DNA from: a virus
Virus record (IMG/VR): IMGVR_UViG_3300036826_000347
Location: 1 to 46,394 of that record
Length of the DNA: 46,394 nucleotides
Direction: 5' to 3' (one strand)
A program made the translations under genes and the position numbers. Positions 1,641 to 16,457 of the stretch are shown here, piece after piece (position 1 is the first letter of the stretch; every line of letters starts with the position of its first letter). The notes under the pieces were generated by a model. The model was not told where the DNA came from, searched no databases, and worked only from the letters and a program-made list of their open reading frames with translations.

Positions 1641-1660
1641 AGAACTACTAAAGGAGTGTA

Positions 1661-1936
1661 ATGTTTTCGAAGTTGAACACTTATGTCGACGTTCAGATTG
1701 ATCGGATCGTTTCCGCACTTCAGTATCATGAACCGCATGAGCAGGAGTACAACAAATTGTTGAGTCATCTCGAGCGGCTGCAAAAGATCAGGCAAGAAGA
1801 GAAGCCGGATCGGATCAGCGCCGATATGAAACTGGCAGTTGGAGCAAATCTGCTCGGCATTCTGCTGATTTTGAAGCACGAGAACATGAATGTGATCACG
1901 TCGAAAGCGTTGAGCTTCGTGTTCCGAGCGAGATAG
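1661..1936 (+). CDS. Small hypothetical protein
   Basis: This 91-residue protein is not recognised. It has a charged amphipathic N-terminal half, probably helical (QYHEPHEQEYNKLLSHLERLQKIRQEE), and a hydrophobic C-terminal segment (KLAVGANLLGILLILKHE) that could be a membrane helix. It is a single-gene unit: promoter P1 is 20 bases upstream, the ribosome binding site AAGGAG is 7 bases before the ATG, and an intrinsic terminator lies 25 bases after the stop. Confidence 0.75.
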   Translation: MFSKLNTYVDVQIDRIVSALQYHEPHEQEYNKLLSHLERLQKIRQEEKPDRISADMKLAVGANLLGILLILKHENMNVITSKALSFVFRAR

Positions 1937-3082: not shown

Positions 3083-3093
3083 CCATATATCGG

Positions 3094-3260
3094 TTAGGTT
3101 ACTCAGACACAGGCCCAAATCCTAGACGCAGCGCGGAAGAGTACTGACCTGCTCTTTGGCGGCGACAATAAGACTCGATAACCCTTTGGTTATCCCTTAG
3201 CTAGGTGCTGTCAAAAGGTAGGTCAGTGCGATAGCACAAGCCTGTGTCTCAGTAACCTAA
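3094..3260 (+). ncRNA. Structured RNA candidate A
   Basis: A 21-base arm at 3094-3114 pairs with 3240-3260 with a single mismatch. Inside, ACTGACCT (3143-3150) pairs with AGGTCAGT (3220-3227), GATAACC-CTTT-GGTTATC forms a 7-bp hairpin at 3177-3194, and GTGC-GATA-GCAC forms another at 3226-3237. The total is 167 nt. The left arm can alternatively pair with CCTAACC (3078-3084), which overlaps the stop codon of the upstream gene, so a switch between two folds is possible. It is not a tRNA (no acceptor or T-arm pattern), and I recognise no known class. Confidence 0.65.
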
Positions 3261-3267
3261 TCGGAGC

Positions 3268-3292
3268 TCGCGAGAAAAACTTACACTATAAT
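3268..3292 (+). promoter_or_regulatory. Phage promoter P5 (TCGCG-13-TATAAT)
   Basis: TCGCGA at 3268-3273 and TATAAT at 3287-3292 with 13 bases between. The spacer GAAAAACTTACAC resembles that of P6 (GAAAAACTGGGCA). It starts 8 bases after RNA candidate A and directly precedes small RNA S3. Confidence 0.75.
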
Positions 3293-3360
3293 AGAAGGGG
3301 GAGAGCTTCGCATTGGAGCCAGACACGGCTACGGTCGTGAACCCCTTCTATTTTTTCTTT
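3293..3360 (+). ncRNA. Putative small RNA S3
   Basis: AGAAGGGG (3293-3300), which begins right after the -10 box, pairs perfectly with CCCCTTCT (3342-3349), followed by ATTTTTTCTTT. Between the arms lie short stems (AGCC/GGCT and CACG/CGTG). No coding frame is convincing in these 68 bases. The perfect terminal stem starting at the likely transcription start and ending in a T run makes this the clearest of the three putative small RNAs. Its target is unknown. Confidence 0.6.
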
Positions 3361-4578: not shown

Positions 4579-5118
4579 ATGCTCAAGAAGACGATTACGT
4601 ACGAGGATTTCAACGGCGAGACAGTTGTCGAGGATCATTTCTTCCATCTCTCGAAAGCGGAGCTAGTCGAGCTCGAACTGAGCCATCAGGGCGGTTTGGC
4701 GGCCTCGTTGCAAAAGATCATCAGCTCCGAAGATGGCAAGGCAATCATCGCGGAATTCAAGAATATCATCCTGACCTCCTACGGCAAGCGTTCGGACGAT
4801 GGACGACGTTTCATCAAGAACCAGGAATTTCGTGAAGAATTCGAATCGACCGAGGCATATTCGGCGTTGTTCATGGAATTGGTTACGGATACAGACGCCG
4901 CGGTCGAATTTGTCAACGGCATCATTCCGGCAGGTATGAGCGAGGAAGCTGCTAAATTGGCAGGAATCGACCCCAAGACCACACCGTTGATCGTGGTAGA
5001 GAACGAATCGCCGGGAAGACTCGTAACGAGGAAAGAATTCGTGGAGATGTCTCAGGATGAGCTTCGCGAGTTGGGACCGAAATTGGCCTCGGGTGAGGTG
5101 AAGCTCGAGCAGGAATGA
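4579..5118 (+). CDS. Tail assembly chaperone-like protein
   Basis: The N-terminus (MLKKTITYEDFNGETVVEDHFFHLSKAEL) and the central block (FKNIILTSYGKRSDDGRRFIKN, ESTEAYSALFMELVTD, FVNGIIP) match a conserved phage family. I recall it beside tail genes, annotated as a tail assembly chaperone or hypothetical protein, in Gram-positive phages. The family is usually near the tape measure gene; here it sits among early small genes, far from the second chaperone-like gene at 39461. Its stop codon is part of the first arm of RNA candidate 1. Confidence 0.65.
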   Translation: MLKKTITYEDFNGETVVEDHFFHLSKAELVELELSHQGGLAASLQKIISSEDGKAIIAEFKNIILTSYGKRSDDGRRFIKNQEFREEFESTEAYSALFMELVTDTDAAVEFVNGIIPAGMSEEAAKLAGIDPKTTPLIVVENESPGRLVTRKEFVEMSQDELRELGPKLASGEVKLEQE

Positions 5119-5228
5119 GGATAGCGAAATTAATGAGACGACAAAAAGATGGCCTCGTGGAAGCGCCATTAACAAAGCGTCAGCCCTGTCCACGCGGGGA
5201 AGGCGGTTAAAGCCGCTCGCTATCCTCA
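5116..5228 (+). ncRNA. Structured RNA candidate 1
   Basis: TGAGGATAGCG (5116-5126) pairs perfectly with CGCTATCCTCA (5218-5228), closing 113 nt. Inside are GACG (5137-5140) with CGTC (5178-5181), a hairpin ATGGC/GCCAT (5149-5169), a GCGG/CCGC hairpin near 5203-5216, and a loop contact CGTGG (5156-5160) with CCACG (5190-5194) that would form a pseudoknot. The first arm includes the stop codon of the chaperone-like gene. It shares CGACAA.AAGA with candidates A and 2. I see no coding frame and no tRNA features. Confidence 0.65.
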
Positions 5229-5232
5229 GAAG

Positions 5233-5417
5233 TTCCCAGGCTTAGTTAGATCACCGTCTTGTAGGAGAGGTCTCCCTATGTGGAGGCCCTTCACGAGATT
5301 TAAGGGGCGACAAAGACCTAGACTTCTGCAAGAGTTCGGGAACAAATCGTCCGGTGTTGCAGCGCAAAGCGGGTTAACTCGTACCGCGCGAGACGGCGGT
5401 CTAACTAAGCCTGGGAA
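5233..5417 (+). ncRNA. Structured RNA candidate 2
   Basis: A 27-base arm (5233-5259, starting TTCCCAGGCTTAG) pairs with 5391-5417 (ending CTAAGCCTGGGAA) with one wobble and one mismatch. This is the longest stem in the window. Inside, CTGCAA pairs with TTGCAG, AGGTCT with AGACCT, and a GCCCTT/AAGGGGC stem and a TAGG..CCTA hairpin are visible. Total length is 185 nt. Its last base lies one base before promoter P6, just as candidate A ends right before P5. The class is not recognised. Confidence 0.7.
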
Positions 5418-5418
5418 T

Positions 5419-5443
5419 TCGCATGAAAAACTGGGCATATAAT
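5419..5443 (+). promoter_or_regulatory. Phage promoter P6 (TCGCA-13-TATAAT)
   Basis: TCGCAT at 5419-5424 and TATAAT at 5438-5443 with 13 bases between. The leader AGAACCTACTAAGGAG is nearly that of P1 (AGAACTACTAAAGGAG). It drives the single gene at 5465-5704, which ends in terminator T4. Confidence 0.8.
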
Positions 5444-5464
5444 AGAACCTACTAAGGAGATGTT

Positions 5465-5704
5465 ATGTCTTTGCCTATGGCCAGGCTTGCTGTACATGCT
5501 GTTGCGAGCCTTGGTGTTACGAAGGTCATTCACGATATCATTCGAGTCAATACCGTCGTTACCAGCACTTTTGACGCTGTCAGAGTTGCCACGGGAACAC
5601 TGGTAATCGGCTCTTTGATTTCGGAGGTCGCTTCGAAGCACGTTAACGATCGTATCAATGATGTCGTCGCCTGGAACAATCAGCGAAAGGCTGACAACAA
5701 TTAG
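5465..5704 (+). CDS. Small conserved phage protein
   Basis: This 79-residue protein has two hydrophobic stretches (ARLAVHAVASLGVTKVIHDII and ATGTLVIGSLISEVA) and a C-terminal helix ending in VNDRINDVVAWNNQRKADNN. I recall actinobacteriophage proteins with the same order VxKVxxDII-N-V-T...D..KV..G...LG.M...H...KI..VV.W. It is probably membrane-associated; the function is unknown. It has a strong ribosome binding site (AAGGAG) and a dedicated promoter and terminator. Confidence 0.75.
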   Translation: MSLPMARLAVHAVASLGVTKVIHDIIRVNTVVTSTFDAVRVATGTLVIGSLISEVASKHVNDRINDVVAWNNQRKADNN

Positions 5705-14254: not shown

Positions 14255-14352
14255 TAGGTGTCGAGGTATGACCAAGCCCTAAGTTACGACTTTCTGTTAT
14301 GAGAAGAAACTCGTAGCGTCCAAGACCGGAATACGGACCGGAGCGACACCTA
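14255..14352 (+). ncRNA. Structured RNA candidate 3
   Basis: TAGGTGTCG (14255-14263) pairs perfectly with CGACACCTA (14344-14352), closing 98 nt. Inside, TACGA (14285-14289) pairs with TCGTA (14311-14315), with a smaller TTTCT/AGAAG hairpin within, and the GTCC...GGAC and CCG/CGG pairs form a second arm. The element lies between a stop codon and RNA candidate 4. The length is tRNA-like, but the closing stem is 9 bp and there is no T-arm sequence or CCA end. Confidence 0.6.
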
Positions 14353-14356
14353 ATTT

Positions 14357-14470
14357 CAGTCTCCAGGTAACCCCATGGGTTGTTCTGCCTGGGCCAAATG
14401 GGGCTTGCTGACGAGAGACAAGGATGCCGATCAGGGGCTTGGTCAGGCATTGCAGTTAGACTGGAGACTG
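14357..14470 (+). ncRNA. Structured RNA candidate 4
   Basis: CAGTCTCCAG (14357-14366) pairs perfectly with CTGGAGACTG (14461-14470), closing 114 nt. CCCCAT (14371-14376) pairs with ATGGGG (14398-14403), and ATGCC pairs with GGCAT in the second half. The loop of the first hairpin (TGCCTGGGCCAA, 14386-14397) is nearly complementary to TTGGTCAGGCA (14439-14449), so a kissing contact or alternative fold is possible. There is no coding frame on the + strand. Confidence 0.65.
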
Positions 14471-14480
14471 AGTAAAAAAT

Positions 14481-14586
14481 TGCTCTAGGAGCAGGAGGGC
14501 TGATCACCCGAGGCGAGACTAGAGAGCACACGGTACGGACCCTTGAAGAGCCTGCTTTACGATGCACTGGGCTACGCGGTGTGCAT
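14481..14586 (+). ncRNA. Structured RNA candidate 5 / leader of the Rpf-like gene
   Basis: Several mutually exclusive pairings are visible. TGCTCTAG pairs with CTAGAGAGCA (with a 2-nt bulge), AGCAGG (14490) with CCTGCT (14551), GCACAC (14526-14531) with GTGTGC (14579-14584), and ATGCAC (14562-14567) with GTGCAT (14581-14586). The last two compete for the same bases just upstream of the ribosome binding site of the secreted enzyme gene, the layout of a translational switch. It is less cleanly bounded than candidates 3 and 4. Confidence 0.45.
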
Positions 14587-14613
14587 ATTTGTCCCCTATC
14601 AAGGAGTTTACAC

Positions 14614-16011: not shown

Positions 16012-16102
16012 TTCTCCGGGACAGTCGATACCCGGAGTACGGACGGAGGAGAATTCTCTAGCGGCTACCCTCCCAAAGCTAGTCGTTAGAGATCTCCGTC
16101 CG
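16010..16102 (+). ncRNA. Structured RNA candidate 6 with two alternative folds
   Basis: CGGACGGAG (16040-16048) pairs perfectly with CTCCGTCCG (16094-16102), and inside it TCTCTAGCG (16055-16063) pairs with CGTTAGAGA (16084-16092), forming one long hairpin. An alternative uses AATTCTCC (16010-16017) with GGAGAATT (16048-16055), enclosing a CCGGG/CCCGG hairpin (16016-16035). The two folds share bases 16048-16055, so they exclude each other. The element spans the gap between two genes, 40 bases before the next start, and has no T run. It could be a translational or processing switch. Confidence 0.6.
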
Positions 16103-16142: not shown

Positions 16143-16457
16143 ATGGGTCGTTTTGAAGTACAAGGGATCGTTTCGGCTCAGACCGGCGAACCGTTGATTC
16201 AAATGCGCCAACTCGATAACAACGATAATTTGGAGTTCGGTTTCGAAATCCCACCATTGGAAGCACGCGAAATGGCGCAGATGATTCTCGAAGCGAGCAT
16301 CAATGCTGTTTACGATGCCGCGTTGATTGCCTGGGCAAAAGAAAGTGATAACGAGGCGATGGGAGTAATGTTGGTTAATCTAATTCGTAGTTTTCGAGCC
16401 GATCGCTGGGGACTTCCTGATCGTCCGGAGGATTGGCGCAATGACCGAAGATCCTGA
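16143..16457 (+). CDS. Conserved hypothetical phage protein
   Basis: This 104-residue protein contains PLIQMRQLDNNDNLEFGFEIPPLEAREMAQMILEASINAVYDAALIAWAKE and ends IRSFRADRWGLPDRPEDWR. This order (PL.Q.R..D.....FG.E.PPLEAREMAQMI) is a widespread hypothetical family in actinobacteriophages. No function is assigned. The ribosome binding site AAAGGATTG precedes the ATG. It overlaps the next gene by 17 bases. Confidence 0.75.
   Translation: MGRFEVQGIVSAQTGEPLIQMRQLDNNDNLEFGFEIPPLEAREMAQMILEASINAVYDAALIAWAKESDNEAMGVMLVNLIRSFRADRWGLPDRPEDWRNDRRS

Follow-up and report, generated by a model that had tools for sequence, protein, structure and literature searches.

An uncultured soil phage encodes two side-by-side copies of an uncatalogued folded RNA, and these belong to a new family of phage structured RNAs. 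About 39 copies are present in 35 phage contigs. In this family, the shape of the RNA, including a loop-to-loop (kissing) contact, is retained while its letters change. Structured phage RNAs are few and mostly of unknown function. This family is small and has a sharp, testable signature, an ACAAA/ACAAA internal loop plus a six-pair loop contact. It is present in unrelated phages, sometimes twice in one genome. Its compactness suits structure determination, and compensatory loop mutants offer a clean genetic test of the contact and of its role in infection.

The window, the whole 46,394-nucleotide stretch that was analysed, is an IMG/VR virus record (IMGVR_UViG_3300036826_000347) of a tailed phage. 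It encodes a large terminase, a portal, a head maturation protease, a major tail protein, a primase-polymerase (phrog_4210) and the protein that PHROGs calls RNA-dependent RNA polymerase (phrog_4291). The primase-polymerase is about 60% identical to those of Rhodococcus and Gordonia phages, from which an actinobacterial host is inferred to be likely. The region from 1.9 to 5.5 kb holds small genes and five phage promoters of the form TCGCA-n-AAAAAC-n-TATAAT. This motif is often followed by GAAACC and is shared with the relatives. The two copies, E1 and E2, lie between the end of one gene and the promoter of the next. Labels beginning with L or G denote the viral contigs and records compared with the window, and R3 is a covariance model built only from other phages.

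In E1, the closing stem P1 is formed by TGAGGATAGCGA and TCGCTATCCTCA, which pair perfectly over 12 bp. P1 encloses three hairpin arms. The region folds better than all 200 dinucleotide shuffles (-49 kcal/mol, z -5.05). The minimum-energy fold leaves exactly CGUGGA as a hairpin loop, and this loop is complementary to UCCACG over six pairs. E2 has 27-nt closing arms that are 93% complementary (z -7.65) and contains its own loop contact. Both copies contain the ACAAA/ACAAA internal loop flanked by P2 with standard pairs, loop complementarity of at least 5 bp and a closing stem around the whole fold (12 bp in E1, 22-27 bp in E2).

The earlier note described a perfect 11-bp stem beginning in the stop codon of a chaperone-like gene, with a five-nucleotide loop, CGTGG, complementary to CCACG outside the hairpin. 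This observation is confirmed, but it understates what is present, since the stem is one pair longer, the contact is one pair longer and the second copy was not reported. The stem does begin in the TGA stop codon. The chaperone-like label is not confirmed, as the upstream gene matches phrog_4282, which has unknown function. The note's interpretation is partly supported. A structured RNA with a conserved tertiary contact is strongly supported, and lack of conservation of the contact, which had been named beforehand as a refuting outcome, was not found. The ribozyme, riboswitch and nuclease-resistant classes that it suggested are neither shown nor excluded.

Table. Coordinates of the RNA copies, neighboring features and other structured elements (window positions unless a contig is named).
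Position	Strand	Feature	Support
4579-5118	+	Upstream gene, phrog_4282, unknown function; its TGA (5116-5118) is the first 3 nt of E1 P1	PHROGs match
5116-5228	+	RNA copy E1 (113 nt)	Fold; R3, 30.8 bits, E 5.3e-7; ortholog at the same place in L125/L154
5116-5127/5217-5228	+	E1 P1
5137-5140/5178-5181	+	E1 P2
5141-5145 and 5172-5177	+	E1 internal loop, ACAAA and ACAAAG
5148-5153/5165-5170	+	E1 P3
5184-5188/5195-5199	+	E1 P4
5203-5207/5212-5216	+	E1 P5
5156-5161	+	E1 loop L3, CGUGGA, 5' strand of the kissing helix	Covariation
5189-5194	+	E1 loop L4, UCCACG, 3' strand of the kissing helix	Covariation
5231-5419	+	RNA copy E2 (189 nt)	Fold; R3, 52.8 bits, E 1.8e-13; E2-like homologs L111, L124, L126, L117
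5231-5259/5391-5419	+	E2 P1 (22 bp perfect with GU, then imperfect)
about 5263-5293	+	E2 extra hairpin
5306-5309/5348-5351	+	E2 P2
5310-5314 and 5342-5347	+	E2 internal loop, ACAAA and ACAAAT
5326-5331	+	E2 loop L3, CUGCAA	Covariation
5357-5362	+	E2 loop L4, UUGCAG	Covariation
5419-5445	+	Phage promoter motif TCGCAtgaAAAACtgggcaTATAAT of the next gene (5465-5704, phrog_7539), just after E2	Motif
1992, 2286, 2742, 3268, 5419		Repeated phage promoter motif	Shared with relatives
3090-3264		Stem-closed element (24-nt arms, 92% complementary)	Homolog in L010 1818-1974, E 2.4e-16
3268-3360		Promoter motif, then hairpin with 11-bp closing stem, structured insert and U-run (3290-3352)	Similar layouts in several relatives
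14255-14352, 14355-14472, 14476-14600		Cluster of stem-closed elements in a gap without genes (14255-14600)	Last element: homologs in L012 4047-4162 and L152 1607-1714
16012-16110		Structured gap in front of gene 16143-16457
L140 about 1630-1700; L141 about 1650-1720		RNA with tRNA-like T arm (GGGUUCGAUUCCC)	Conserved in two phages
L011 5826-5943		Terminator hairpin enclosing a folded domain

To find the family, forty-four relatives of the upstream gene were retrieved. Right after that gene, almost none of those examined have the RNA and only the promoter is present. L125/L154 has an ortholog of E1 between the phrog_4282 homolog and the promoter of the next gene, with a closing stem whose letters have changed in step (CUGAGGAUAACCG/CGGUUAUCUUCAG). 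Stem-closed elements in other gaps of these relatives share GRYGACAAA...ACAAAUCRUC. Pattern scans of viral contigs and three covariance models then gave the copies counted above. Of the 27 records brought in by the protein alone (G001-G027), 16 hold the RNA, although they are fragments. R3 finds both window copies and nothing else convincing in the window. Weak model hits in L073, L061 and Arthrobacter phage Qui (E 0.08) look like chance matches. A sliding scan for structure was too noisy to rank elements.

Sequence conservation is concentrated in unpaired positions. The ACAAA of the internal loop is unchanged on its 5' side in 24 of 26 non-redundant members and on its 3' side in 23 of 26. P2 covaries (GC/AU; AU/GU/CG; CG/UA). 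P1 is conserved as a pairing and not as a sequence (709.5 against 427.9 +/- 22). The same four-way junction (P1, P2/P3, P4, P5) is the minimum-energy fold of E1, L154, L138 and L140. A small inverted-repeat mobile DNA element (MITE-like) whose ends happen to pair was considered, because the place differs between relatives and P1 looks like terminal inverted repeats. However, conservation in the unpaired core and in compensatory changes is the reverse of what a transposon end would show. This reading is very unlikely and is already nearly refuted by the covariation of P2, P1 and the loop contact.

The loops of P3 and P4 are complementary in nearly all members, with different letters (for example UGGCAAA/UUUGCCA, CGCACA/UGUGCG, CUGCCG/CGGCAG and UCGUGGGA/UCCCACGA). 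With loops taken by position and not picked, the own-partner score is 393.5 against 272.8 +/- 13.3 for permuted partners, and none of 100,000 permutations is as high. Eight members found after this rule was set give 14 of 40,320 permutations as high. In a composite alignment, the six kissing pairs are 97.7% formed and each has changes on both sides. The P3 and P4 stems and hexamers in this alignment were hand-picked to pair, so this result is descriptive, unlike the two loop permutation tests and the P1 test. The permutation tests do not model relatedness of the sequences, for which the variety of pairings across unrelated phages is the safeguard. L153/L156 have a tiny P3 and no contact, and L145, L158, L159, L180 and L184 have short or weak contacts. 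The contact is therefore not indispensable.

Covariation cannot separate contacts within a molecule from contacts between copies. The RNA may instead assemble into dimers or rings that act as a scaffold, as phi29 packaging RNA (pRNA) does. The P2/P3 arm is much longer than P4, so a contact within one molecule needs a sharp bend. In the window, E1 L3 does not pair with E2 L4, and in two-copy genomes each copy matches itself, as a homo-oligomer would. The large phage RNAs GOLLD and ROOL form homo-oligomers through kissing loops (PMC12286853). These features are equally explained by a contact within one molecule with the ACAAA/ACAAA loop as the bend. No match to phage pRNA is found at the Rfam scan thresholds, and the phages carry an ordinary terminase. 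This alternative is considered unlikely. The pRNA also has a closing helix plus two hairpins with complementary loops, but the present RNA is found in phages of several types, its contact is usually 6 bp and is not shown to be between molecules, and an invariant ACAAA/ACAAA loop is not known as a pRNA feature.

None of the 4227 Rfam 15 families, which include GOLLD, ROOL, phage pRNA, riboswitches and self-cleaving ribozymes, matches the window at or above the gathering score. In 20 member loci, the only match is a neighboring tRNA. A relaxed scan of 5090-5440 gives only a chance snoRNA match (E 2.5). A compact fold with a loop contact and about ten nearly invariant unpaired nucleotides is typical of both self-cleaving ribozymes and small-molecule riboswitch aptamers. 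However, there is no Rfam match to either class, no constant downstream gene or visible expression platform, and no conservation of sequence at the element ends. A ribozyme or aptamer is possible but unlikely. Purine-riboswitch-like junction folds share the closing stem and arms locked by a loop-loop contact, in architecture only. The present RNA has a four-way junction, arms of unequal length, no conserved downstream gene and no Rfam match. Neither copy is an intrinsic terminator, as E1 is followed by GAAGTTCCC and E2 by CGCATGAAA, with no U-run directly after the stem.

GOLLD and ROOL are likewise phage- or prophage-encoded, elaborately folded RNAs of unknown function with conserved kissing loops, often near tRNA islands (PMC12286853). 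They are about 600-800 nt, whereas this RNA is 100-190 nt and unrelated. Bacteriophage T4 rnaC and rnaD (species 1 and 2 RNAs) are small stable RNAs of unknown role in a tRNA cluster. They are rejected as relatives, as the best unfiltered model score in the T4 tRNA region is 7.6 bits (E 0.33), no match is found in the whole T4 record and the predicted folds differ. Highly expressed noncoding RNAs of unknown function are reported for mycobacteriophages and Rhodococcus phage WC1 (PMC10986025), so such RNAs in actinophages have precedent. No description of the present family was found in the literature searched, although a motif cannot be searched for by sequence.

Members occur in the window's phage group and in other phages. 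These include a T4-like phage with a tail sheath and a T4-like neck protein (L090), a phage with 13 tRNA genes in 3 kb and the RNA among them (L052/L139), a phage with the RNA beside tRNA-Leu (L056/L142), and phages with a Pol-I polymerase (L091, and L104 with similar genes). Nine of these fragments lack the window's polymerase family, although absence from fragments is weak evidence. Neighboring genes differ from place to place, and several genomes contain two copies. In the closest relatives, L124/L126, the RNA is in a different place than in the window. No match is found in 17 whole records of cultured phages (Rhodococcus, Gordonia, Arthrobacter, Curtobacterium, Streptomyces and Faecalibacterium phages, T4, other T4-like phages and more), a set that leaves out most cultured phages. 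One exact-pattern scan of 84,980 cellular species, which catches only members that fit the pattern, gives 5 hits. Two of these lack the fold and the other three score below the listing threshold of the model, so all five are taken as chance, and no convincing member was seen in bacterial or archaeal genomes with this one pattern.

The analysis establishes a conserved RNA fold with a loop-loop contact. Transcription within longer phage transcripts is implied by position, and the RNA has no recognizable promoter of its own here or in the window's phage group. Release by trimming at or near P1, stability as an RNA of about 100-190 nt and action in trans are inferred. In the explanation that is favored, with only modest confidence, E1 and E2 are two tandem genes of the family. 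Each RNA would present the ACAAA/ACAAA platform, the natural binding surface, to a host or phage protein or ribonucleoprotein during infection. Action in trans is favored because neighbors are not constant, the core is more constrained than a stabilizing stem needs, copies are gained, lost and moved, and some sit in tRNA arrays, where stable RNAs are made. The presence of two copies in several genomes and of members in unrelated phages, including a T4-like one, also counts for it. More speculatively, and doubtfully on present evidence, this may be a widespread RNA that moves between unrelated phages, folds into a locked platform or homo-oligomer, and acts in trans on the host, for example as a decoy or inhibitor of a host RNA-binding protein or of a defense system.

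The main alternative, which is less likely, is a generic cis-acting intercistronic element that blocks exonucleases, sets the end of a processed mRNA or offers an RNase III site, and so tunes the stability or separation of adjacent messages. The RNA is always intergenic and on the strand of the genes. In the window's group, it often begins right after a terminator U-run (roughly 30-45 nt upstream of P2), and many members are close to the next ribosome-binding site. P1 reaches 28 bp, and E1 starts in a stop codon. However, the conserved part is the unpaired core and a tertiary contact, more than a stabilizing stem or RNase III site needs. The RNA is also found among and beside tRNA genes and is absent at the same junction in most relatives.

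Other structured elements are present in the window and in the relatives (Table). The stem-closed element at 3090 lies directly before a promoter and is probably a second RNA family. The element at 3268 looks like a small RNA gene whose terminator encloses a folded domain. In L011, an intrinsic terminator hairpin encloses a folded domain of about 80 nt in place of its loop. In L152 and L157, the kissing-loop RNA lies near the same gene neighborhood as the structured gap at 16012, so this may be a site where phage RNAs are exchanged. In L140 and L141, the RNA with a tRNA-like T arm is not called as a tRNA and lies just downstream of the kissing-loop RNA.
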